A DNA stretch of 64,000 nt, from contig PAPM01000011.1 of assembly GCA_002708905.1 (NCBI GenBank), positions 62,001-126,000 on the forward strand, in the 5' to 3' direction. This DNA is from Pseudomonadales bacterium. Its GTDB lineage: Bacteria > Pseudomonadota > Gammaproteobacteria > Pseudomonadales > Ketobacteraceae. Every line of letters starts with the position of its first letter. The stretch's first letter is position 1. The notes beneath the pieces are model-generated. The model was not told the DNA's origin. It saw only the letters and a list, made by a program, of their open reading frames with translations, and searched no databases. Positions 38,846 to 57,207 of the stretch are shown one piece after another. Made by a program: the position numbers and the translations under genes.

Positions 38846-39310
38846 TTATTGTGGGGGCGTGCTCTGCCGGTAGACCACTTTCACTTTGCTCAGGAGTTCT
38901 TTGTCCGGTTGAACCAGATAGCCAATGGCGAAGGTTGAGCGCTGAATGGAGTCAACAACTGCTTGCTGGGAGTCTGCCATATAGGGAACCTTGCCTTTTC
39001 CGCTGAAAAGGTAATACGCACGGTAGCGCTTCAGTTTTGGCAGTGAAATGCCGATGACCACGTCATAGAATTCGCGATAGGCATCGCTTCCCTGGGGCTG
39101 GTCAATGGCAAGGGGTTCGTGCTCTGTGCCGGGGTACAGGTGCAGCCTTCCCAGGAAAACCTTGCGTACCTCTTTGGTGCTGAGGCTGGCCACCGGATTT
39201 TCCAGATTGGTCACCACTACGATATCGGCGCTCGTCCAAGCCGGCAGCCACCAGAGTAACGCAAGCAGCAGGAGGTGTTTGGTGAGGGCGGGGATGATCA
39301 GATTCCTCAT
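38846..39310 (-). CDS. Small periplasmic phosphate-binding-like (PBP) protein
   Basis: A 154-residue exported protein with a signal peptide ending near WTSADIVVV. The sequence VVVTNLENPVASLSTKEVRKVFLGRL followed by YREFYDVVIG and GKGKVP...AIGYL resembles the PstS-like domain of phosphate-binding proteins. It has only about half the usual length. Its ATG overlaps the stop of the upstream porin-like gene, and a divergent hybrid kinase lies beyond that. Such small binding-like proteins next to porins and sensors may be ligand-sensing subunits, which is inference. Confidence 0.75.
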   Translation of the reverse strand: MRNLIIPALTKHLLLLALLWWLPAWTSADIVVVTNLENPVASLSTKEVRKVFLGRLHLYPGTEHEPLAIDQPQGSDAYREFYDVVIGISLPKLKRYRAYYLFSGKGKVPYMADSQQAVVDSIQRSTFAIGYLVQPDKELLSKVKVVYRQSTPPQ

Positions 39311-40526
39311 CAGAACACCACATCCATCACAACAGTCGTCAAGATGGCGTTATCAGGGGGCTCGGCGTTGTTGAGGGGGAAGCCCTGGCCGGTGGAGCCT
39401 GCCAGAAAATTGAAGTACTGCATCTCGAATTTTACACAGGTATTGCGCATGAAATCATAGCGAATCCCCAGTGTGATGCTGCGCTCCTTGGCTTTGAAGC
39501 TTTGCAAGCCTGTTTTGGTCTGTTCCAGCAAGGAGGCTGCGAATGGGTATGAGGCCGTGGCTGCATCAATCAAGGGTAAGGTGTCTTTGTTCAAGGTGTT
39601 GTCGTAGGCGCTGACGACGGTGTATGGGGTGAATTCGTTCAGGTGATAGAACAGGGAGATGTACCAGCCGTCGGAATCGTTGGCAAAGCCCGAATCCGGA
39701 GCCAATACCCAGTACTTCTCGGCGATGATTCCCCAGTTTTCAATATCCCATTGACCGCCGATGGCGTGGTACTGGTAGTTGGTGCCCTCGGCGTACAGGG
39801 AGCTGCCGATTTCGTTAAAAATGGGGTCACCGGTAAGCTGGGCCAGATCATCATAGGCGCTGATGGCGGCTTGAAGTCCCGTCGACTGAATGTCGGTGTG
39901 CTCAATATGGAAGGCGTAGCGCACCAGCCAGTCCAGGGATCTGAGCGGGTAGTGCCGTAGGTGGGGTGTGAGTCTACCGTGACGTCGCGAATCTCGCCTT
40001 CCACGTAGCCGGCAAACAAGAGCAGGTCCAGCTCCAGGTCGCCACCGACGTCCAGGGTGTATTGCATGTCGGCGCCGTCAATGTTGACCAGGGGTTGCAG
40101 TAAGTAGGTGTAGACGTCGATGGGGGGCCTGGCCCAGGGGTAAGAGTAACCTACATCCCGGGTGCTGGAGAAAATGTAGTGGGAAGAGCGCAGGCGTCCC
40201 AGGCGCATCTGCAGGTTTGGGGCGGCCTGGTAGCTGAGAAACAGCCACTGAAGCTTGGGGTCGTAGGATTCATCGCCTCCCAGCGCCAGGCCGGAACTGG
40301 ACACCTGGGTCGTGAAGGAGAGTTGCTCGGTGATGTTCCCCTGCAGCTGGATGCCCAGACGGGTGTCGTTATCAAAGTCCCAGTTCTTATCGGCTTCGCC
40401 AAACTGGAAGTCATCCCGGTTAACTTTACCCACCCCGATAGAGCCAAAGCCGGAAAATTGCCAGTTTTGCTCACCAAAACTGGAACAGGTGCACATGGTG
40501 AGGAGGGTGGCCAGCAGAATCCGCAC
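39310..40526 (-). pseudogene. Outer-membrane porin-like gene with a frameshift
   Basis: The first part (40526 to about 39950) encodes a signal peptide and beta-rich sequence with alternating aromatics (LQWLFLSYQAAPNLQMRLGRLRSSHY). The second part (about 39950 to 39310), in another frame, continues as barrel strands and ends in the Phe-terminal DVVF typical of outer-membrane proteins. The frames join near 39935-39962 at RSLDWLVRYAFHIEH. One missing base there restores a single protein of about 405 residues. The start is GTG with AAGGA upstream. It may be a true mutation or a sequencing error. It is translationally coupled to the small binding-like gene. Confidence 0.75.
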
Positions 40527-40679
40527 AGAAGGTCCTTGTTGTGTTTGGTTGTTCTAATAAGCATAGCCAAATACTGATATGGCGCAGCTAATCTGGCCCC
40601 TGGAGTCGGCATAAAGAACAACCGACTGCTAAACTGGAAGTATTAACAGGCGGCGGGCCTGGGTTTCGTGGTGTGCGTA

Positions 40680-42404
40680 ATGAAATTCAATCAAAACGCA
40701 AAAATTCGCCTTCATATTCTGTCCATTGCCTTGATCGGCGGGGTCGGGTTCCTGTGCTACCTGCTGGCCAACGTCTTCATGGCCAAGCAAAACGAGCGCC
40801 GCCTGGACGAGCTGCTGAACCGGCAACACCCCATTATTGAGCAGGTGCGGGCGCTGAAGCGTGACATCCAGGTGATCCGTGAGACCATGACGTCGGCTGT
40901 GGCGCTGGAGGATCCGTTCCTGGTGGAGGATTCGGAAGAGCTTTCCCTGCAGGTGGAGGACAGGCTGCAGGCCCTACCCCGACTGGACCCCACACTGCAG
41001 GTGCTGGCCAGCAACCTGAGCGGTGTTTACCAGAATTATTACGATATTTCCCGTCAGCTGGCGGAAGATCTTATTGAGCATCCTGCCGAGCTGCACCGGT
41101 TCCAGTTGAGGATTGATCGTTCCCATCAGATCTACGATGGCTTGATGGAGGTGCTGGACCGTACCCTGGAAGAGCGCCAAAGTAACTTTGCCCTGTTGCT
41201 GCGCCAAACCGATGCGGCGGTGAAAGAGGCCAATTTATTTGGCGCGCTGTTGGGTGGGTTTGTTATTGCGGCGCTGCTGATCCTGGCGTGGGTGATCTCC
41301 GTGCGGGTGCTGCGGGAAATTGAGCGCACCAACCGGCTCAAAGACGAATTTCTGGGCACCATCAGCCATGAGATGAGAACCCCCATGAACGGCATTATCG
41401 GCTCGCTGAACCTGCTCTCCAAAGTAGAGCTGACGCCGGATCAGCGGGTTTGGCTTGAGGCCGCTTCGCGCTCTGCGGATTCCATGATGCTGTCCATTGA
41501 TGACATCCTGGAATTGAGTGAGGTGATGTCCGGGCGTGAGCAGGTGGACCTGGCCAGCAAGGGGCTACAGGTGGAGTGTCGCTTCGAGGACGTGGCGGAC
41601 CAGCTGCTGTCCAGCGATGAGAAGAAAGTCTTTCATGTGGTTCGACACCTGCTGAGCAATGCCATCAAGTTCTCACCCGCTGGGGAAATCACCATTTCCA
41701 TTTCCAGGGTGCCGGTTTACCACGGGGCTCCAGAGCGGGTGAGCATTGTTATTCAGGATTCCGGGCCCGGGATTGAGCCTCATCAGATCAAGGAGCTATT
41801 CAAGCCGTTCCAGCAGGCGGACGGTTCGTTTCGGCGTCAATACCAGGGCATGGGCATCGGTTTGTCAATCTGCAAAGCCATCGCGAAATTGTTGGGAGGC
41901 TCTATCTACCTGGAAAACCGGGCAGGTGGCGGCCTGTCAGTGGAGTTTTGTTTCCCGGTGTTTGACGTGAAGGAGGGCGACTTCGCTGAAGCTGAGTCAC
42001 AGGGACGGGTTTCGGTGCTGGATCATCAACAGCCCCTGGTTTTGGTGGTGGAGGATAATCCTGTTAATCAGATGGTGATTAAGGGGTACCTGAAGCGCCT
42101 GGGGTGTGAGGTGATCACTGCCAACAACGGCAAAGAGGCGCTTGATCTGGTGGGGCAGAGAGCGGTGGATCTGGTGTTTATGGATTGTCAGATGCCGGTG
42201 ATGGACGGCTTTGAGGCCACCCGCAAGATGCGGGAGATGGATGAGCCTGTTTGCAATCTGCCGATCATTGCGGTTACCGCCAATGCCATGGATGCCGATC
42301 GCCGCATGTGTCTGCAGTCCGGTATGGATGGCTATCTCAAAAAGCCTGTGGCCCTGGTGGATATTGAGTCCGAGTTGAAAGCGCACGTTTCCCATGCCGC
42401 CTGA
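40680..42404 (+). CDS. Hybrid sensor histidine kinase/response regulator
   Basis: A 574-residue inner-membrane kinase. One helix near the N-terminus (about 10-30) and one at about 190-210 enclose a helical periplasmic sensor of some 155 residues. HisKA follows with phospho-acceptor His about 230 ([11 protein letters not shown]), then HATPase_c ([20 protein letters not shown]) and a receiver with Asp about 501 ([13 protein letters not shown]). No HPt is present. The ATG at 40680 is taken; a GTG at 40668 is possible. It diverges from the porin-like/binding-like pair, suggesting a sensor for what that pair handles. Confidence 0.9.
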
Positions 42405-44029: not shown

Positions 44030-45784
44030 ATGCCCAGTTATCAAGCTCCCCTGCAGGATATGGAATTTCTACTGTTTGATGTGTTTGAGGCGCAGCAGCA
44101 TTGGGGGTGCTGGCCACAGGTGAGCGGGCTGTTGGACGAGGACACAGCCCGGGCGATGCTGGCTGAAGCCGGTAAGCTGGCGGTAGCCACCATCGCCCCT
44201 TTGAACCGCTCCGGAGATGAAGAGGGTGCGCAATGGGACGCGGGCAGGGTAACCACGCCCAAAGGGTTCGCCGAGGCCTATCGGGCGTTTTGTGAAGCCG
44301 GTTTTGCTGCGTTGACCGGGAATCCGGCCTACGGCGGGCTGGGCATGCCGAAATCCCTGTCGGTGCTGGTGGATGAAATGATGTATGCCGCCAACAGTGC
44401 CTTTAATCTCTACCCCGCACTATCGGCCGGTGCCTGTCTGGCCCTTGATGCCCATGGCTCAGGGCAATTGAAGCAACGCTTTCTGCCGAATCTCTACAGC
44501 GGCAAATGGAGTGGCACCATGTGTTTGACGGAGCCCCATGCCGGCAGCGACCTGGGCCTGATCCGTACCAAGGCCGAACCATTGGGCGACGGAAGCTACG
44601 CTGTGACCGGTACCAAGATTTTCATTACTGGTGGTGATCATGATATGGCGGAAAACATTGTGCATCTGGTGCTGGCCAAGTTACCGGACGCGCCCGGCGG
44701 GTCCCGCGGCATATCGCTGTTTCTGGTGCCGAAATATGAGGTGCTGGAGGATGGTAGCTCAGGCTCTGCCAATGGGGTTTCCTGTGGTTCGCTGGAACAC
44801 AAAATGGGAATTAAAGGTTCGGCCACCTGTGTGATGAACTTTGACCGGGCCCGTGGTTTTCTGGTGGGAGAGATCAATCGTGGATTGCAGTGCATGTTTA
44901 CCATGATGAATTGCGAGCGTCTATCTATTGGTATTCAGGGGTTGGGCTGTGGTGATGCCTCCTACCAGAATGCCCGTGATTATGCACGGGAGCGCTTGCA
45001 GGGGCGTGATGCCCAGGCTGCTTCCAGTGCGGTGGCTGATCCGATTATTGTGCATCCGGATGTGCGGCGGATGCTGCTGAACATGAAAGCCCTGACAGAA
45101 GCGGGGCGGGCCTTTGCGGTGTACCTGGGCTTGCAACTGGATCAATCCAAATTCGGCCAAACGGATGCCGAGAAAGCAGTGGCGGATGCCCGTGTCGCGT
45201 TGTTAACGCCGGTGGCAAAGGCCTTTTTCACGGATATGGGGCTGGACTGTACTGTGCTGGGTCAGCAGGTGTTTGGCGGTCACGGTTATATTCGGGAGTG
45301 GGGCCAGGAACAGTTGGTACGCGACGTGCGCATTGCCCAGATCTATGAGGGTACCAACGGCATCCAGGCCATGGATCTGGTGCAGCGTAAAGTGTTTGCC
45401 AATGGCGGTGAATGGATGGAAGCCTATCTGGAGGAGATCCGTCACTGTGCGTTGTCAGCGCAGGGTGGTGAGTTGGAGGATCTGGGGCGGGCACTGGCAA
45501 CGCGGGTTGAACAGCTGCAGCAGCTCACCCGCACTCTGATTCAGAGTGGTGAGCAGTCAGCGTTGGAGCTGGGCGCTGCGGCTTGCGACTATCTGCATGT
45601 GGTGGGCTATGTTTCCTACGGGTACATGTGGCTCAGAATGCTGGGCCGGGCTGATATGGGGAGCGCAAAATACAAAACCGGAGTCTATTTTTTCAATCGT
45701 ATTTTGCCCCGTGTTGACAGTTTGATCGCCGCTATTGAAAGTGGCTCCGATGACCTCATGTCGATACCGGCGGAAGCGTTTTAG
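44030..45784 (+). CDS. Acyl-CoA dehydrogenase (DmdC/FadE-type, long form)
   Basis: A 584-residue FAD enzyme that introduces the alpha-beta double bond in an acyl-CoA. The flavin and substrate segments MCLTEPHAGSDLGLIRTKA, KIFITGGDHD and HKMGIKGSATC are present. The catalytic Glu lies in AQIYEGTNGIQAMDL. The extra C-terminal domain of about 120 residues is typical of the long class that includes methylthiopropionyl-CoA dehydrogenase DmdC. AGAGGTC precedes the ATG. Divergence from an ScfR-type regulator suggests induction by a short- or medium-chain acyl intermediate. The exact substrate cannot be told. Confidence 0.94.
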   Translation: MPSYQAPLQDMEFLLFDVFEAQQHWGCWPQVSGLLDEDTARAMLAEAGKLAVATIAPLNRSGDEEGAQWDAGRVTTPKGFAEAYRAFCEAGFAALTGNPAYGGLGMPKSLSVLVDEMMYAANSAFNLYPALSAGACLALDAHGSGQLKQRFLPNLYSGKWSGTMCLTEPHAGSDLGLIRTKAEPLGDGSYAVTGTKIFITGGDHDMAENIVHLVLAKLPDAPGGSRGISLFLVPKYEVLEDGSSGSANGVSCGSLEHKMGIKGSATCVMNFDRARGFLVGEINRGLQCMFTMMNCERLSIGIQGLGCGDASYQNARDYARERLQGRDAQAASSAVADPIIVHPDVRRMLLNMKALTEAGRAFAVYLGLQLDQSKFGQTDAEKAVADARVALLTPVAKAFFTDMGLDCTVLGQQVFGGHGYIREWGQEQLVRDVRIAQIYEGTNGIQAMDLVQRKVFANGGEWMEAYLEEIRHCALSAQGGELEDLGRALATRVEQLQQLTRTLIQSGEQSALELGAAACDYLHVVGYVSYGYMWLRMLGRADMGSAKYKTGVYFFNRILPRVDSLIAAIESGSDDLMSIPAEAF

Positions 45785-45792
45785 GGTCTGTA

Positions 45793-47553
45793 TTACAGGC
45801 CTTTCAACAACACGCTGCCGAGGGGTTGGCGATCCCGGCTCAAGGCCAGGCTTTTGATTTCCCCTTCGGATATCCGAATTTCAAGTGGATCAAAATTCGG
45901 AATCAGCAGGTAGCCGACGGCTGCTTCATTCGGGTTGTCCAGCTCGAACGTGACGGAGTCTGAACCAAAGTCAAACATGATGAGCTGGTGTTGGCTGGAC
46001 TCAATGTTGGCGATATAGCTCGGGACAACGTCGCCGCGATCGCTGCGCAGTTGTACCAGCGTATTGCTGGGCCAGGTTACCTTGGCGGTTCGGGTTTGTC
46101 TCGATTGCACCCGGGCCAGATTTTCAGAAAAATCCATCAAATCGTTGATCGCGGATATACGGTGGGTGGCAAAATCCTTACTCTTGATACGGAAGGTATC
46201 GCCGTTGCCGACGAAATACACCGGATGGTCAAAGCCCGAGGAATCAATAACGACTTCCAGGTTGTCGTCAGGCTTGGAGCCATCCACCATATACGCCACG
46301 ATAAATTCCGGAGTGGTGTCCAGCATGCGTATGCTGCCGCTGATTTTTTTAGGCGGAACGCCGCCAGTCTGTTTTATATTGGATTGCTGAGCCGTGTTGG
46401 CCGCCATGGGCTTTAGGGGTAAGGCGGCAAATAACGTACTCACATGGCTGCGTGCGCTTTCAAGGCAGGTGTTCAGTTTGCCCAGCTTGCTATCTATGCT
46501 GCGGGCTTTTTGCGAGCGCTTTTGATTCTGGTAGTAGGTGCTGTTCGATAACGCGGTACGCACGGTGTTGCGGCTCTCTAACGCGGATTCATACTGTGCG
46601 CGGGCGTTGGCGTAACTTTCCTGGGATATATCGGCGGCGGTTTGCTGCTTCACGGACTCACATTGAGCGATTCCTTTTTTCAGCGCATTATCGTATTCAT
46701 TCAGTTCTTGTTGCGCCTGCTCCAGGCTGGCTTCACTGGCATCAATCCGTTGTTTCAGACTGGCCATGCAACGGTCACCTGCAGCGAGTTGCTTGTCTGT
46801 GCTGATTTTTTCCGGGCGGTCAGGTGTCTTTGCCAGTTCCGCCAGCGCCAGGGTTTCGGTCATGACGGCACGGTGATGCTGCCTCGCCGTTATCAAAGCC
46901 TTGTTGGCCTCATCCAGGGCTCGCTTGTCTTCCGGGGTGGCGTTTAAACCTTGCAAAGCATTTTGACAAACGCTGTTGTAGGATTCGCTCTCTTCCACCA
47001 CGGTATCAATGGACAGGGATAACGCCTCCTGCTTCTGGCTGAAGCCGATAATTTTCTTCTCCAGGCGTTCGCAGCGGCTGATCTGGTTGCGGGTGCTGAA
47101 CAGGTCAGTGAGTCTGGGCGCGGTGCTCAGTGCTTCCTCCTTGAGAGATACAAACTGATCATAACTGGCTTTGGCGAGTTCCGGCTGCTTGGCTTTCAGT
47201 TGCTCCCGGGCCTGGTCGCAGGCACTGATCGCTTTGTTCAGAATGGGGGTGCCGATTTCGATCTCGATATCTTTTGCGACCCGCTCACAAAATTTCAGAT
47301 TGCTGTCCATGCCCCGCTTATTGGTGGAGAGAATGGTGTTGTTAAGGCCTACCGCTTCCGCCTTGATGGCGTCATATTGCTTCAAAGCGCGGTTGGCACC
47401 ATTCAGGTCGCCGGAAGTGAGGGCATCCTTTGCCTCCGTGCAATGATCAAATCCCTTTAGATAAACTGCGACAGCATCGTCAAAGGTGTCGGCCAAGGTG
47501 GTGCTGGCCAGGGCGAAACCCAAAACGAGGAGAATGATCTTCTGTTTTAGCAT
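45793..47553 (-). CDS. Periplasmic helical-repeat protein with eight cysteines, unknown
   Basis: Not recognised. The 586 residues start with a signal peptide cleaved near LA-DTF (21/22). Residues 30-375 are helical and fall into four diverged repeats. Each opens with Cys in a C..A...L context and closes with a second Cys: 38/89, 112/161, 196/262 and 298/363. This suggests one disulfide per repeat. After a linker (about 380-402), the C-terminal 185 residues are beta-rich (SGFDHPVYFVGNGDTFRIKS...), perhaps cupredoxin-like without clear copper ligands. It converges on the acyl-CoA dehydrogenase gene. A scaffold or ligand-binding role in the periplasm is possible. Confidence 0.8.
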   Translation of the reverse strand: MLKQKIILLVLGFALASTTLADTFDDAVAVYLKGFDHCTEAKDALTSGDLNGANRALKQYDAIKAEAVGLNNTILSTNKRGMDSNLKFCERVAKDIEIEIGTPILNKAISACDQAREQLKAKQPELAKASYDQFVSLKEEALSTAPRLTDLFSTRNQISRCERLEKKIIGFSQKQEALSLSIDTVVEESESYNSVCQNALQGLNATPEDKRALDEANKALITARQHHRAVMTETLALAELAKTPDRPEKISTDKQLAAGDRCMASLKQRIDASEASLEQAQQELNEYDNALKKGIAQCESVKQQTAADISQESYANARAQYESALESRNTVRTALSNSTYYQNQKRSQKARSIDSKLGKLNTCLESARSHVSTLFAALPLKPMAANTAQQSNIKQTGGVPPKKISGSIRMLDTTPEFIVAYMVDGSKPDDNLEVVIDSSGFDHPVYFVGNGDTFRIKSKDFATHRISAINDLMDFSENLARVQSRQTRTAKVTWPSNTLVQLRSDRGDVVPSYIANIESSQHQLIMFDFGSDSVTFELDNPNEAAVGYLLIPNFDPLEIRISEGEIKSLALSRDRQPLGSVLLKGL

Positions 47554-47606: not shown

Positions 47607-49043
47607 TTAGACCAGAATGAGCGTGGCTAAGCCCAGGAACAGGAAAAAGCCCATACTGTCGGTGGCAAACGTCAGCACAACGGAAGAGCCCATGGCGGGG
47701 TCTTTGTGCAACTTATCCAGCAAAATCGGCACGCTGATGCCGATCAGGGCAGCCAACAGCAGGTTTAATGTAACCGCCGCCATCATCACCATCCCTAACA
47801 GCATACTGTTGTAGAGCAGCCAGGCAGCCAACCCCAGCAGGGTGCCCCACAGGATGCCGTTGACCAGGCTGATGGTCAGCTCCTTGCGATAGATGTACCC
47901 CAGGTTGCCGGTCTGAATTTGCTCCATTGCCAGACCCCGGATCACCAGGGCGGCGGTCTGGTTGCCGGTGTTGCCTCCCACACTGGCGACGATGGGCATC
48001 AGGGTGGCAAGGGCCACCAGTTGCTGGATGGTTCCCTCAAACACGCTGATAAAGCGGGTTGCCAGAAATGCCGTAAACAGGTTGATCACCAGCCAGGGCC
48101 AACGTTCCCGGGCGCCTTCCAATATGGGGCCGAACAGATCCGTATCGGCTTTCAGGCCCTCTTTGGCCAGGGCCTGGTTTTCGGCCACTTCGCGCAGGTA
48201 GTCCATAATGGTTTCCACCCGTAGCCGCCCCACCAGGCGCCGGTGCTCATCCACTACCGGCGCGGAAATCAGATCGTAGCGCTCAAATGCCTGTCCGGCA
48301 TCTTCTGCGTCATCGTCGGGGGAGAAACTCACCACATCTTTATCCATACAGTCTCGAATCAAGGTGTGATCAGGGTGGCGCATCAAGTCAATCAGCGGGA
48401 CGATCCCAACCAGTTGGTGGTGCCTGTTGGTGACAAACAGTTTGTCGGTTTGTGGTGGAAGTTCCGGCGCTGAGCGTACCCGTTCGATGGCCTCATGGAT
48501 GGAACAGCCTTCGTCTACTGTGAGGCTGTCCCGGCTCATATTGTCGCCGACGGTACCTTCGGGGTAAGCAATCGTTTGGGTGACCCAATGTCGCTCGTTG
48601 GCTTCCAGGGCGTTGATGGCCTGGCGCAATACGTGATTGGGAATGAGGTCGTCGATTTCGGTGAGTTCGTCGCTGTCCAGTGATTCCAGGATGGCAAGCA
48701 GTCGGGTCTCATCGGTCAGTTCAATCAGGTCTTCGGCAACGGAATCGTTTAGTTCCAGTAATACGCCAGCGGCAACCGGGTTTGGGAGTTCTTGCCACAC
48801 TGTATGCCGTTTGTCGGCCGGCAGCATATTCAGCAGGTGGCCGATATCGGCTTTGTTCAGTTTGTTCAGCTCGCGTACCAGGGCAGCGCTTTGCTGACGA
48901 TGAACCAGGTTTTCAATCAGGTCGGATCGGTTTTGCTGTTGGCGATGGGTAACCGTCTCAACCACAGACTGTCGTTGCAGTTGAGCAAGGACCGGCGCCA
49001 GGCGCTCGGCCAGCTTTTTCGGGCGTTCATCCGGTTGGGTCAT
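47607..49043 (-). CDS. mgtE: Magnesium transporter MgtE
   Basis: MgtE is a Mg2+-gated Mg2+ channel of the inner membrane. The 478 residues contain an N-terminal helical domain (MLPADKRHTVWQEL), paired CBS domains (about 160-290) that sense Mg2+, and five C-terminal transmembrane helices. The pore signature VASVGGNTGNQTAALVIRGLA lies between helices. It lies 53 bases before the repeat-protein gene in the same direction. Confidence 0.96.
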   Translation of the reverse strand: MTQPDERPKKLAERLAPVLAQLQRQSVVETVTHRQQQNRSDLIENLVHRQQSAALVRELNKLNKADIGHLLNMLPADKRHTVWQELPNPVAAGVLLELNDSVAEDLIELTDETRLLAILESLDSDELTEIDDLIPNHVLRQAINALEANERHWVTQTIAYPEGTVGDNMSRDSLTVDEGCSIHEAIERVRSAPELPPQTDKLFVTNRHHQLVGIVPLIDLMRHPDHTLIRDCMDKDVVSFSPDDDAEDAGQAFERYDLISAPVVDEHRRLVGRLRVETIMDYLREVAENQALAKEGLKADTDLFGPILEGARERWPWLVINLFTAFLATRFISVFEGTIQQLVALATLMPIVASVGGNTGNQTAALVIRGLAMEQIQTGNLGYIYRKELTISLVNGILWGTLLGLAAWLLYNSMLLGMVMMAAVTLNLLLAALIGISVPILLDKLHKDPAMGSSVVLTFATDSMGFFLFLGLATLILV

Positions 49044-49887: not shown

Positions 49888-50205
49888 TCAGGAGTGTTTG
49901 TTTCTCTCGTTATCATCCATGACATTGGATATATGTTGGCCATCTTCCAGTGTCTCAAACATATCTGAGGCCAGTTCACCCACTTTCTGGTTTATTTCAC
50001 GAATTTTTTCATACACCATGCCGATGGTTTGCTGGTTCTTGTCCCGGAGCTTTTGGCTTTCTTCATCCAGCAGCCCGGAGCGTTCCAGGGCTTCGAAGGG
50101 CATATCGGCGATGGATTTGTGAACATCCTCCACCGTGCGGGCGCCATTGTCGATGGCGGTCTGAATCATATCTTTTAACAGTTCTACTTTGTTCAAGAGT
50201 CCCAT
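49888..50205 (-). CDS. Small helical protein of unknown function
   Basis: Not recognised. A 105-residue cytoplasmic protein, almost entirely helical and charged (MGLLNKVELLKDMIQTAIDNGARTVEDVHKSIADMPFEALERSG...). It has no Cys, signal or membrane segment. AGGAACAC lies before the ATG. The gap to the downstream barrel gene is about 220 bases. The amphipathic helices recall small phasin-like or lipid-associated proteins, but this is not established. Confidence 0.72.
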   Translation of the reverse strand: MGLLNKVELLKDMIQTAIDNGARTVEDVHKSIADMPFEALERSGLLDEESQKLRDKNQQTIGMVYEKIREINQKVGELASDMFETLEDGQHISNVMDDNERNKHS

Positions 50206-52825: not shown

Positions 52826-53458
52826 ATGAATAACCGTCAGGAACGGAAATTACAGACGCGGCAGTCCCTTATGAATGCGGCGCTGCAGTGGGTAGAAGAA
52901 GGGCAGCATTTCTCCAGTTTGAGTATCCGTGAGGTGGCCAAAAGGGCAGGGGTGGTCCCCACGGCGTTCTATCGGCATTTCAAAGACCTGGATGATCTGG
53001 CGCTTAATCTGGTCGATGAACTGAGTCTGGTGTTACGGCAGCTGATGCGGGAGGTGAGGCAGAATCGGGTCAATCCCCAGCATATTATTCGGGACTCAGT
53101 GCAGCAGTACTGCCAGTATGTGGTGACGCAGCGGGTTTTCTTTATGTTTATGTCCCAGTCCATGACGGGGGGATCGGCTGTTATCCGGCAGGCCGTACGC
53201 AGCGAGCTACAGTACTTTGCCAAAGAGCTGGTGGCCGACCTGCAACGCTTTAATCTTTTGCCCCACCTTGATGCCAATATGATGGATGTGCTGGCGGAAC
53301 TCACTATCTCGGTAATGGCGTTTGCGACAGTACAGTTGCTTGATCTTGCCGATGGCAGCAGCCAGGCACGTCAGGACTTTGAAAACAAACTGGCCCGGCA
53401 ATTACAGCTCATTTATGTGGGGGCTGAGAGCTGGAAGCGGGAACAGGAGCCGCGCTGA
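52826..53458 (+). CDS. desT: TetR-family regulator of desaturase genes (DesT/FabR-like)
   Basis: A 210-residue regulator with an N-terminal TetR helix-turn-helix (SSLSIREVAKRAGVVPTAFYRHFKDLDDLALNLVDEL) and a C-terminal acyl-CoA-sensing type domain. P. aeruginosa DesT responds to the saturated/unsaturated acyl-CoA ratio and controls desCB, and its position here is the same. The ATG at 52826 starts the conserved region and has AAGGTGG upstream; the frame is open further back. Its 3' end overlaps the convergent diguanylate cyclase gene by 50 bases. Confidence 0.9.
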   Translation: MNNRQERKLQTRQSLMNAALQWVEEGQHFSSLSIREVAKRAGVVPTAFYRHFKDLDDLALNLVDELSLVLRQLMREVRQNRVNPQHIIRDSVQQYCQYVVTQRVFFMFMSQSMTGGSAVIRQAVRSELQYFAKELVADLQRFNLLPHLDANMMDVLAELTISVMAFATVQLLDLADGSSQARQDFENKLARQLQLIYVGAESWKREQEPR

Positions 53459-55322
53459 GTTTGTCGCTGTCAACGCAGTACAGTGTTACCCGGTTGCGGC
53501 CATTGGCCTTGGATTGGTAGAGGGCCTCGTCCGCTTTTGCAAGCATGTCAGCGCAATCGTTATCGGTTGTGGGAACCGTTACCATCAGGCCAATACTCAC
53601 GGTTACCGGTACGGACTGGTTTTTTACCTTGAATTCCATGGACGCCACACATTCCCGAATTCTTTCCGCCACGGTGAGGGCGCCTTCTACCGCCGTTTCC
53701 GGCAGTAGTACACAAAACTCCTCTCCACCGTATCGGGTAGGACGGTCACTGGGCCAGCGCAGCCCTTTCCTGATGGCCTGGGCGACTTCCCGCAGGCATT
53801 CATCCCCGATCAGATGGCCATAGGTGTCGTTGAAGTGTTTGAAGTGATCGATATCCATTAACAGTAGTGCCATGGAGTGTTGGTAGCGGCTGCAGCGAGC
53901 GTATTCTTCCTCCAGTACCCGATCCAGAAAACGACGGTTTTTCAGGCCTGTGAGTTGATCCGTGTCACTCAGCTCCTCCAGTTTCTTATTCAACTGTTCT
54001 AATTCTATGGTCCTTTCCTGGACCCGGTGTTCCAGGGACTCTGTGGCCTGTTTCTGAATTTCGAGGGCCTGTTCTCGGGCGTGACGCAGTTCCCGTTCAG
54101 TGTTGAGGGCATCCTGCTGGGCTTCAAAACGCATGCGTCGTTCCTGATTGATGCGTTCGGCTAGAGCGAAGGAAAGCAGGGTGACCTCCAGTGCAGAGCC
54201 AATTTGGGTGGCATAGTCGGTAAACAGGTTCTTGGGCAGCAGATTGTATTTGCTGAAGGCGAGGATGATGCCGCCGCCGAGTAATGAGCTCCAGGCAATG
54301 GTGTAGTATTTGGCAGACAGGCCACCGCTGTACCAGCGGAAAACTCCGCTGGAGAAACCGTAGCAGCAGACCACCCCGGCGAACGGGATCAGGGTTCGAA
54401 TGACGATGTTATAGGGTAAGAGCAGGGCCATGATCATGATGATGCCGGCACCGCCGGCACAGACAAACCCGGCATAACGAATAGGACTCTTTAGTTCATA
54501 CAGGCGCAGGAAATTGTGTGTAAACAAGGAACCGAATGCCACAGCGGCGGAGAGTGTCACAAGAATCGCCTGGTCATTCCAGCGGGTGGCGTCAGGCCAC
54601 AGATACTGGAAAGCGAAGCCGCTCAGGCTGGCCAGAAACAAGGGCATACTGCAGACAAACAGCACATAGTACAGGTAGTTGCGCTCACCCACCGCCAGAT
54701 AAACGAACAGGTTATACACCACCATCACAAACATAATACCGTAGTACACCCCATGAATGAGGGTTTGCGTGCGGTCGTGGTTAAAGAAGGACTGCTCTTC
54801 CCACAGTGTTATCGGTACCTGAATAGAGCTGGAGCTGCGCACGCTTAAGTAGACCGTGAGCGTTTCATTGGGCTCCCATTGCAAAGGCATAACAAAGTTA
54901 CGGTGATTGATGGGTCGTTGATCGAAAGGGAGCTTGTCGCCCAGGTGCAGGGTTTGCTGCTGGTTGTTGCCCAGTATGTAAACGGAGAGATAGTCCAGAA
55001 CCGGATAGCTGATCTCCAGCAAGCGATCTAGTTTCCAGGCTTCCTGATTGGAAATACTGATGCGCAACCACCAGGTGGCATCGTTGTAACCATGGTTGAA
55101 CGCCTGGCGGTTGTTATGCTGCCAGGCGTTTTCGGGCAGGTTTTTGATATCGGCAATGTTCAGCAGGTTCTCGGAGTCCTGGTAGTAGTACAGGTAACTC
55201 GCCAATGGCTGCTGTTGCACTGATGTGTGAAGCTCGAAAGTTTCCGCCCATGATCTGGTGCACAGCAAAAGCAGTAGTAATACCCCATTTCTCATCAGTG
55301 TGATCTGCCATGATCTGTTCAT
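53409..55322 (-). CDS. 7TMR-DISM diguanylate cyclase (downstream paralogue)
   Basis: A 637-residue membrane receptor that makes c-di-GMP. It has a signal peptide, a 7TMR-DISM extracellular domain, seven transmembrane helices (about 195-390) and a coiled linker. A GGDEF domain follows, with the active-site RYGGEEF near 529. The product-inhibition I-site Arg is Trp here (WPSD), so feedback control is probably lost. ATG at 55322, with AAGGAT just upstream, follows directly on the upstream gene's stop, so it is chosen over an earlier in-frame start. It is a tandem duplicate of the next gene. Confidence 0.92.
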   Translation of the reverse strand: MNRSWQITLMRNGVLLLLLLCTRSWAETFELHTSVQQQPLASYLYYYQDSENLLNIADIKNLPENAWQHNNRQAFNHGYNDATWWLRISISNQEAWKLDRLLEISYPVLDYLSVYILGNNQQQTLHLGDKLPFDQRPINHRNFVMPLQWEPNETLTVYLSVRSSSSIQVPITLWEEQSFFNHDRTQTLIHGVYYGIMFVMVVYNLFVYLAVGERNYLYYVLFVCSMPLFLASLSGFAFQYLWPDATRWNDQAILVTLSAAVAFGSLFTHNFLRLYELKSPIRYAGFVCAGGAGIIMIMALLLPYNIVIRTLIPFAGVVCCYGFSSGVFRWYSGGLSAKYYTIAWSSLLGGGIILAFSKYNLLPKNLFTDYATQIGSALEVTLLSFALAERINQERRMRFEAQQDALNTERELRHAREQALEIQKQATESLEHRVQERTIELEQLNKKLEELSDTDQLTGLKNRRFLDRVLEEEYARCSRYQHSMALLLMDIDHFKHFNDTYGHLIGDECLREVAQAIRKGLRWPSDRPTRYGGEEFCVLLPETAVEGALTVAERIRECVASMEFKVKNQSVPVTVSIGLMVTVPTTDNDCADMLAKADEALYQSKANGRNRVTLYCVDSDKLSAAPVPASSSQPPHK

Positions 55323-55326
55323 ATCC

Positions 55327-57207
55327 TTATCCCAGCCTCCTGTCGGATTTTGGTGGCGCTGTTGACACTTGGTCAGGGACGTCTTTGCCCGCCACAACCG
55401 TTCTGTTACGACCGGCCTGTTTGGCTTTATACAGTGCCTGATCCGCCCTTTTTATGAGATGTTCCGGTGTGACATGCCGGTTTGAGCAAAGTGAGGCAAC
55501 CCCGAGGCTGATGGATACATTGGCGGGCTCATTCTTTACACTAAATTTCATGTTGTTGACGGAACTGCGCAAGCGCTCAGCCATTTTTTCTGCGTATTCC
55601 ATCGAGGTTTCAGGCATCAGAACACAGAACTCCTCACCACCATAACGGGCGATGCAGTCAGTGCCTTCGCTGATGGTTTGCGCCAGCACATCCGCTACCG
55701 CTCGCAGGCACTCATCTCCCACCAAATGACCATAGCGGTCATTGAACTGTTTGAAGTGGTCTATATCCAGCAGAATGATAGACAGGTCGTGGTGGTAGCG
55801 CTGGCAGCGGGCCAGTTCTTCCTGCAGCACCCGATCCAGATAACGCCGGTTTTTTAGTCGCGTGAGTTGGTCGGTGTCGCTGAGATCCGACAGTTGACGG
55901 TTAAGTGACTCCAGCTCAGCAGTGCGCTGTTCCACTTTTCGTTCCAGTTCTGCCGCAGCCTGTTGTTGGAACTGAAGCGCCTGCTCACGGGCAAGTCGGG
56001 TTTCCCGTTCCGCCTCCAGGGCTTTGCTTTGCGCTGCAGAGCGAACCCGGCGATCTTCGTTGATGCTGGCCGCCAGCGCAAAGGACAGCAAAATAACTTC
56101 GATACCGGAGCCTACCTGTAAGGTGTTTTCTGTGAACGCATTGCTTGGTGTGAGTCCCAGTTTGTTGAGGCCCATAATCAAGCCACCAATCAGGAATGCG
56201 GACCAGCCCAGGGTGTAGTAGCGGGCGGAAAGGCCGCTGCGATTCCACATTAAAATACCGAACATTAACCCCAGGCAGCAGGAAGCGACGGCAGCCGGGA
56301 TCAGTATGCTGATTATGAAGCGGTAGCTGAGGAAGAAAGACATTAGAAAGAGCAGGAGGATGACGTTCTCCTGAATTCGGAAAACGACGGGGGCCCACCT
56401 GCCGAGTTTTTTTACCTTTAGAAAATTCTCAGTGAACAGTGCCCCGAATACCAAGGCCAGACATAGGGGGATTATGATGGCATGGTCATTGAGTTGAGGA
56501 TGATTGGGCCAGATATATTCAAAGCTGAACCCCTTCAGGCCTGCAATGAACAGCGGAAGCGTGGAGGCAAAGCAGACATAGAGAATAAAGTTGCGTTGCC
56601 TTACAGCAAGGAAAACAAACAGGTTGTACAGGATCATTACCATCATGATGCCGAAGTAGAATCCCTGTAGCAGGTTTTCGATTCGGTTCCAGTCGAAGTA
56701 GTCCTGTTTCTTCCACAGTGTGAGTGGTACCTGAACGGAGCTGTGGGTACGAACGCGGAGGTAGAGTTCTACTTCACTGTTGGGTTGGAAGTAAACCGGT
56801 ACCACATAGTCAGTGGATTGAATGGGGCGTTGGTGGAACGGAAGTCTATCGCCAAGATAGAACGCCGAGTGCTGCTTACCTTCCACAATATGAACCTGAA
56901 CATCATCCAGGTTTGGATACGCTATTTCCAGATAGCGGGTGATCGCTGCGGATGAACTGTTGCTCAAGTGAATCTTCAACCACCAGGCGGAGCGACTGTA
57001 GCCCTTCGAAAACACCTGGCCGGAATTGTGTTTCCAGTCGTTGGGTTGAATGGTAAGGACATCCTCAAAAGTGAATTGATTGCGCGAGTCTTCAACGTAG
57101 CGGATGGAGCTTGCCAACGATATATACGTAAATGAATCCCCGCCGACATCCAGGCTTGCCAGCGCGGGGGTGGACAGGACTATCAGCAGTACAGCTAGAA
57201 CCGGCAT
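55327..57207 (-). CDS. 7TMR-DISM diguanylate cyclase (upstream paralogue)
   Basis: A 626-residue receptor with the same plan as its neighbour: signal peptide, 7TMR-DISM extracellular domain (HNSGQVFSKGYSRSAWWLKI), seven helices and coiled linker. The GGDEF domain has IARYGGEEF near 521. The I-site position reads EGTD instead of RxxD, so inhibition by c-di-GMP is probably absent. Its stop lies four bases before the start of the second cyclase gene. The two proteins are alike along their whole length, indicating a local duplication. The promoter must lie in the 57208-57394 region. Confidence 0.93.
   Translation of the reverse strand: MPVLAVLLIVLSTPALASLDVGGDSFTYISLASSIRYVEDSRNQFTFEDVLTIQPNDWKHNSGQVFSKGYSRSAWWLKIHLSNSSSAAITRYLEIAYPNLDDVQVHIVEGKQHSAFYLGDRLPFHQRPIQSTDYVVPVYFQPNSEVELYLRVRTHSSVQVPLTLWKKQDYFDWNRIENLLQGFYFGIMMVMILYNLFVFLAVRQRNFILYVCFASTLPLFIAGLKGFSFEYIWPNHPQLNDHAIIIPLCLALVFGALFTENFLKVKKLGRWAPVVFRIQENVILLLFLMSFFLSYRFIISILIPAAVASCCLGLMFGILMWNRSGLSARYYTLGWSAFLIGGLIMGLNKLGLTPSNAFTENTLQVGSGIEVILLSFALAASINEDRRVRSAAQSKALEAERETRLAREQALQFQQQAAAELERKVEQRTAELESLNRQLSDLSDTDQLTRLKNRRYLDRVLQEELARCQRYHHDLSIILLDIDHFKQFNDRYGHLVGDECLRAVADVLAQTISEGTDCIARYGGEEFCVLMPETSMEYAEKMAERLRSSVNNMKFSVKNEPANVSISLGVASLCSNRHVTPEHLIKRADQALYKAKQAGRNRTVVAGKDVPDQVSTAPPKSDRRLG

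Follow-up and report, generated by a model that had tools for sequence, protein, structure and literature searches.

A candidate disulfide-stapled helical scaffold protein with a copper-dead cupredoxin-like head in a relative of Ketobacter

A gene on the minus strand (45793-47553) of a 64,000-nucleotide stretch of bacterial DNA, here called the window, encodes a protein of 586 residues in which a helical array is followed by a cupredoxin-like domain that is, by its alignment, copper-dead. The bacterium is related to Ketobacter, an oil-degrader. With a probability of about 0.5, we read the protein as an exported, non-enzymatic, disulfide-stapled scaffold with a copper-less docking head, i.e., as a rigid periplasmic spacer or adaptor. 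After secretion, its four helical segments would form a rod of spectrin-like bundles having long helices in common, and each bundle would be locked by one disulfide reaching from the first to the third helix (C38-C89, C112-C161, C196-C262, C298-C363). The C-terminal cupredoxin-like head, unable to hold copper, would then act as a docking or ligand-binding module without electron transfer, and the whole would most likely be a stiff periplasmic spacer or adaptor that works alongside envelope transport proteins, either MgtE or, near a paralog, a porin and PBP-like proteins. Within this reading, export, the disulfides and their pairing, the docking role of the head and the link to MgtE or porin are the parts that we infer.

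The reading frame was taken from the ORF list with its translation, and it is a real gene, as shown by relatives at 74, 62 and 59% identity and by a dN that is low compared with dS (about 0.19 and about 2.2 against the nearest relative, dS being near saturation). Rod and beta part have similar dN/dS ratios, so that the constraint on the latter equals that on the former. The N-terminus (MLKQKIILLVLGFALASTTLA followed by DT) resembles a type I signal peptide when judged by eye; the signal-peptide-like segment spans residues 1-21 (47491-47553, minus strand), with cleavage guessed after A21, and in the alignment the motif A-D-[ST]-F-D-D-A around the guessed site is common to the relatives. On sequence grounds, export of the protein is plausible.

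Cysteines occur only at residues 38, 89, 112, 161, 196, 262, 298 and 363, that is exactly at the pairs 38/89, 112/161, 196/262 and 298/363 which a preliminary description of this DNA had pointed out, and at no other position. For the comparison 45 helical relatives were retrieved (41 complete, four fragments), a set that leaves out eight further weak matches and from which one doubtful row (L109) was dropped. The first six cysteines (C1-C6) are present in 41/41 complete relatives and C7/C8 in 29 of them, which thereby have all eight; the remaining 12 possess C1-C6 and lack both C7 and C8, and the loss of only one member of a pair was found in 0/41. C7 and C8 always go missing together with the entire fourth repeat (R4), and their joint loss is the weaker as covariation because R4 disappears whole. 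The spacing of the cysteines is nearly constant, down to paralogs of about 25% identity, and the residues conserved most in the helical alignment are the cysteines together with core alanines and glycines; in this alignment, cysteine conservation is far above chance expectation. Around the cysteines, hydrophobic residues stand at -10, -7, -3, +3 and +7, separated by polar positions, and the score of this hydrophobic stripe was reached in 108 of 20,000 random draws of helix positions, in a test whose six offsets were fixed in advance and in which -11, -4 and +10 proved not hydrophobic.

The cysteine columns, the structural model and profile comparison divide the array into four repeats, all encoded on the minus strand: R1 (residues 22-97 with C38 and C89; 47263-47490), R2 (residues 98-178 with C112 and C161; 47020-47262), R3 (residues 179-273 with C196 and C262; 46735-47019) and R4 (residues 274-378 with C298 and C363, absent in six-Cys members; 46420-46734), the last two delimited by structure matches as well. 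R2 is homologous to R1 (98.7%, E 3.7e-16 in the profile comparison, both cysteines aligned) and R4 to R3 (96.6%, E 5.4e-10), while R1/R2 and R3/R4 reach only 18-42% against each other, with their first cysteines still aligned. Since the similarity across the halves is weak, the array is better described as two diverged repeat pairs than as four equal repeats. In this form the four two-cysteine helical repeats of the preliminary description are borne out by cysteine columns, profiles and predicted helices. Its statement that the repeat belongs to no nameable family also holds: the profile search that it had proposed was run and found no Pfam or NCBIfam family above cut-off, only coiled-coil-type matches below it, and no model in either library covers the helical array. 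The weak matches to GrpE, SMC, HPPK and others, all below cut-off, were set aside as helix or coiled-coil noise. In Pfam no spectrin model matched up to E 10, and no Sel1 or TPR model matched up to E 10 or, in a second scan, up to E 1; viral contigs scanned with the family alignment gave 19 pattern matches and no relative. In the open-licence PMC literature nothing was found on the window protein or on a combination of cupredoxin and spectrin repeats, nor on bacterial copper-less cupredoxins or spectrin-like disulfide-bonded periplasmic proteins. The repeat family looks new, i.e., undescribed within the libraries and literature searched.

The structure prediction proposed at the same time was also run, and residues 22-377 came out helical, as a spectrin-like array modelled by AlphaFold mostly at pLDDT 80-94, from an input of two sequences and with a pTM of 0.41. 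The predicted helices, some with short breaks, cover residues 16-46, 50-74, 79-120, 124-150, 152-205, 210-242, 247-303, 311-343 and 348-377, and three continuous ones (79-120, 152-205, 247-303) cross the borders of repeats. The structural comparison was topped by spectrin/plakin arrays, namely 3edv (Z 10.9, rmsd 9.5 over 276 residues) and 2odu (Z 10.6, rmsd 4.4 over 197), where, according to the guide of the tool, a helical-bundle Z below about 13 may reflect merely a common arrangement. Parts of R2 (about residues 100-176) fit TPR chains (4apo, rmsd 2.8 over 72; 2nc9, rmsd 1.7 over 56), and Foldseek with the array model returned no match at E <= 0.001.

From the sequences and the model, one disulfide per repeat is plausible. 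The paired cysteines differ by about 3-18 A in height along the bundle, depending on the end of helix B, a figure estimated from predicted helix ends and not from coordinates, which permits disulfides and is no proof of them. In favour of disulfides speak DsbB, which is encoded in the same genome (match above the family cut-off), the position of the cysteines on the hydrophobic side and the joint presence or absence of C7/C8. An alternative pairing was considered (C89-C112, C161-C196, C262-C298), in which a single long model helix would carry both partners of each pair, separated by 23-36 residues, and C1 and C6 would be stranded in six-Cys members; we consider it less likely, with the reservation that a kink at the conserved P103 is conceivable in the first of those helices.

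A linker (residues 379-401; 46351-46419, minus strand), variable in length among relatives and with pLDDT below 50, connects the array to the beta part, which consists of the cupredoxin-like domain (residues 402-520; 45994-46350, minus strand) and a C-terminal beta segment (residues 521-586; 45796-45993, minus strand) common to stand-alone cupredoxin-like proteins. The domain was assigned from a stand-alone profile, a ligand alignment and a PDB profile search. The entire beta region is covered by the alignment to four stand-alone proteins of about 210 residues, and the profile of these four, from which the window protein was left out, matches the window gene in its own genome at E 1.8e-11, detects all 16 fusion proteins (those joining array and beta part) and has matches in 41/274 genomes of the class, own genome counted. 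When 19 sequences of the lineage were used as a profile against PDB, nitrite reductase (E 2.2e-10) and amicyanin (E 9.7e-8) were matched, as were plastocyanin and pseudoazurin. The PF00127 (Copper-bind) cut-off was passed by 3/7 scanned relatives, the window protein itself has no match to this model, and its cupredoxin homology was established stepwise via the stand-alone relatives. Two plasmid relatives carry the annotation 'methylamine utilization protein'; a plasmid search with the window protein as query gave no match. Five matches of the fusion profile to PDB sequences (E 0.13-0.99) were discarded, and AlphaFold on residues 390-586, again with two sequences as input, reached a pLDDT of 35.

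In the stand-alone proteins one reads DHN(I)...GCKIHPKMK(S)YI, a motif that we take to mark the copper site of cupredoxins. Among 56 aligned sequences (16 fusion proteins and 40 stand-alone or MauL-type rows), all four ligands, His, Cys, His and Met, are present in 40/40 of the latter, a count that holds partly by construction, as 30 MauL-type rows were fetched via a motif-containing profile. The fusion proteins keep the first His in 14/16 and have neither the Cys (0/16; Ser in 15, Ala in one), nor the second His (0/16), nor the Met (0/16); the corresponding residues of the window protein are H464 (kept), S504 (for Cys), G507 (for the second His) and V510 (for Met). With three of four ligands absent, the protein does not belong to the blue copper proteins. 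To judge from profiles and ligand columns, the beta part is a diverged cupredoxin descendant that has lost its copper site, and purifying selection acts on this copper-dead domain. The preliminary description had left the beta-rich domain unassigned; its beta-rich character agrees with the homology to cupredoxins, and it proved recognisable after all, as such a diverged descendant.

The rod also occurs on its own. Helical-only paralogs of 467-522 residues have no cupredoxin head, and three-repeat paralogs exist as well; since the rod can be joined to a dead cupredoxin or to a charged coiled-coil tail, or can stand almost alone, it appears to be a reusable module. The charged tail of the helical-only paralogs (L028:4131-5558, L014, L015, L024-L034) bears W-[TVSL]-[DEK]-[LIV]-[VAIS] at or near the C-terminus, a conserved motif that is possibly a recognition tag. 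With the own genome counted throughout, matches were found in 18/57 near relatives (window protein as query), 23/293 genomes of the order and 2/369 of the class (fusion profile), and 2/398 of the phylum (helical profile). This narrowness in order, class and phylum suggests a lineage-specific invention, and such a family is tractable within one genus.

The window gene lies 53 nt downstream of an mgtE-type Mg2+ transporter gene on the same strand (47607-49043, minus) and converges with an acyl-CoA dehydrogenase gene (44030-45784, plus). The stop codons of the convergent pair are 8 nt apart (45784-45793), which leaves scarcely any space for terminators, and none was listed by the site scan. In 7/16 fusion loci, the window counted, the fusion gene follows mgtE on the same strand at 38-117 nt and stands tail to tail with the dehydrogenase gene (gaps of -4 to 96 nt); the other nine are without this arrangement, two of them having the dehydrogenase about 3.1 kb upstream. 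Both these nine loci away from mgtE and the nature of the other steady neighbour, a cytoplasmic dehydrogenase, count against the scaffold reading. The helical-only paralog, too, faces an acyl-CoA dehydrogenase gene in 11/13 loci (in one of the remaining two it is 2.6 kb off, and a contig end is near the other), and these dehydrogenases are about 45-49% identical to that of the window, which fits an ancient duplication of a two-gene unit. A second fusion paralog is placed in a tandem run of porin-like, PBP-like, fusion and PBP-like proteins in two genomes (L086 in the window's own genome and L022 in G002), where the PBP-like proteins are small; the PBP-like matches stay under the Pfam cut-off, and 2/4 porin-type proteins exceed it.

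Several other genes deserve mention in their own right. The porin-like gene of the window (39310-40526, minus strand) is seemingly split into two overlapping frames (ORFs of 295 and 204 aa); its counterparts in four syntenic loci have 409-505 aa, and the window copy would contain a frameshift or an assembly error. Two consecutive 7TMR-DISM/GGDEF genes with slightly overlapping ORFs occupy 53409-57207 (minus strand), and a 105-residue ORF flanked by desaturase and OMP genes (49888-50205, minus strand), without a family above cut-off, is retained in four loci with the window. The stand-alone cupredoxin is flanked by the same two gene families in 8/9 loci, of which L112 is the sole annotated one; the loci like it are seven (L092-L097 and L099). 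There (L112:7093-11813), a MauG-type di-haem peroxidase, the stand-alone cupredoxin and a P460-type cytochrome are followed by a HAMP/chemoreceptor gene, a run suggestive of a small cassette for redox and sensing functions in the periplasm.

What, then, does the protein do? The head points to binding or docking, because its framework is under purifying selection and the ligands were replaced mostly by small residues, and gene position makes MgtE, the porin and the PBP-like proteins candidate partners. A metal or redox protein, whose cysteine pairs would bind Cu(I)/Zn or relay thiols in periplasmic copper handling, agrees with the cupredoxin homology of the beta part, with the di-haem peroxidase and P460-type cytochrome flanking the stand-alone relatives and with the almost absolute conservation of the cysteines. 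We nevertheless consider it unlikely: three of four copper ligands are gone in 16/16 fusion proteins, each bundle holds a single isolated cysteine pair, and the annotated surroundings of the fusion genes comprise mgtE along with porin-like and PBP-like genes, and no copper genes.

The bundles might instead bind a small molecule as the sensing domains of chemoreceptors do, in a ligand-sensing or substrate-capturing periplasmic protein. To this would fit the top Foldseek match, the sensing domain of McpZ (probability 0.96, but E 5.3e-3 and rmsd 49), the paralog in the porin/PBP-like run and a histidine kinase gene at 40668-42404; yet Pfam and NCBIfam detect no signalling domain in the window protein, and conservation peaks at the cysteines and at alanines and glycines of the core instead of outlining a polar pocket, so that we consider this explanation just as unlikely. 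Less likely still is a cell-surface or S-layer-like structural protein, suggested by a match of the S-layer protein SbsC to residues 24-168 (Z 8.8, rmsd 6.7 over 144), as this is one middling match amid many helical proteins and the Pfam and NCBIfam matches of the family include no surface-anchor model. The scaffold with a docking head remains our preferred reading. A bolder and rather improbable version of it is a new family of envelope struts, each a modular, disulfide-stapled, spectrin-like mast that would connect the Mg2+ channel of the inner membrane or a porin of the outer one with a partner across the periplasm and whose heads could be swapped, being a copper-dead cupredoxin, a charged coiled coil with a conserved Trp-bearing end, or none.

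According to the preliminary description, an exported helical array with a disulfide in every repeat would be an unusual scaffold; this is not supported, since the Helicobacter cysteine-rich (Hcp) Sel1-like repeat proteins offer a precedent, in which disulfides along the array stabilise exported helical scaffolds (PMC3851747). Hcp repeats are alpha/alpha hairpins of 36-38 residues with disulfides linking neighbouring repeats, whereas the window protein has no Sel1 match. With spectrin/plakin arrays, its top structural matches, the predicted rod would share three-helix bundles with continuous helices; it differs in the size of its repeats (about 75-105 residues) and in their single cysteine pair, in being bacterial and apparently exported, and in having no sequence match to them. 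If true, this would give bacteria an exported equivalent of spectrin-like arrays, with every bundle locked by one disulfide. With the MauL-type/amicyanin-like cupredoxins (PF00127 lineage) it has the sequence lineage and the C-terminal beta segment in common, and the first His is mostly kept; unlike them, the fusion proteins lost Cys, second His and Met (16/16) and gained a fused helical array. Copper-less cupredoxins that retain the fold for binding or structure are represented by ephrins and by quinol oxidase subunit II, which bear no relation to the window protein by the tests made here. Should the present reading be true, it would provide a clear bacterial example of a cupredoxin retained by selection after copper loss. 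The component parts of the protein are of known kinds, and it is their combination that looks new.
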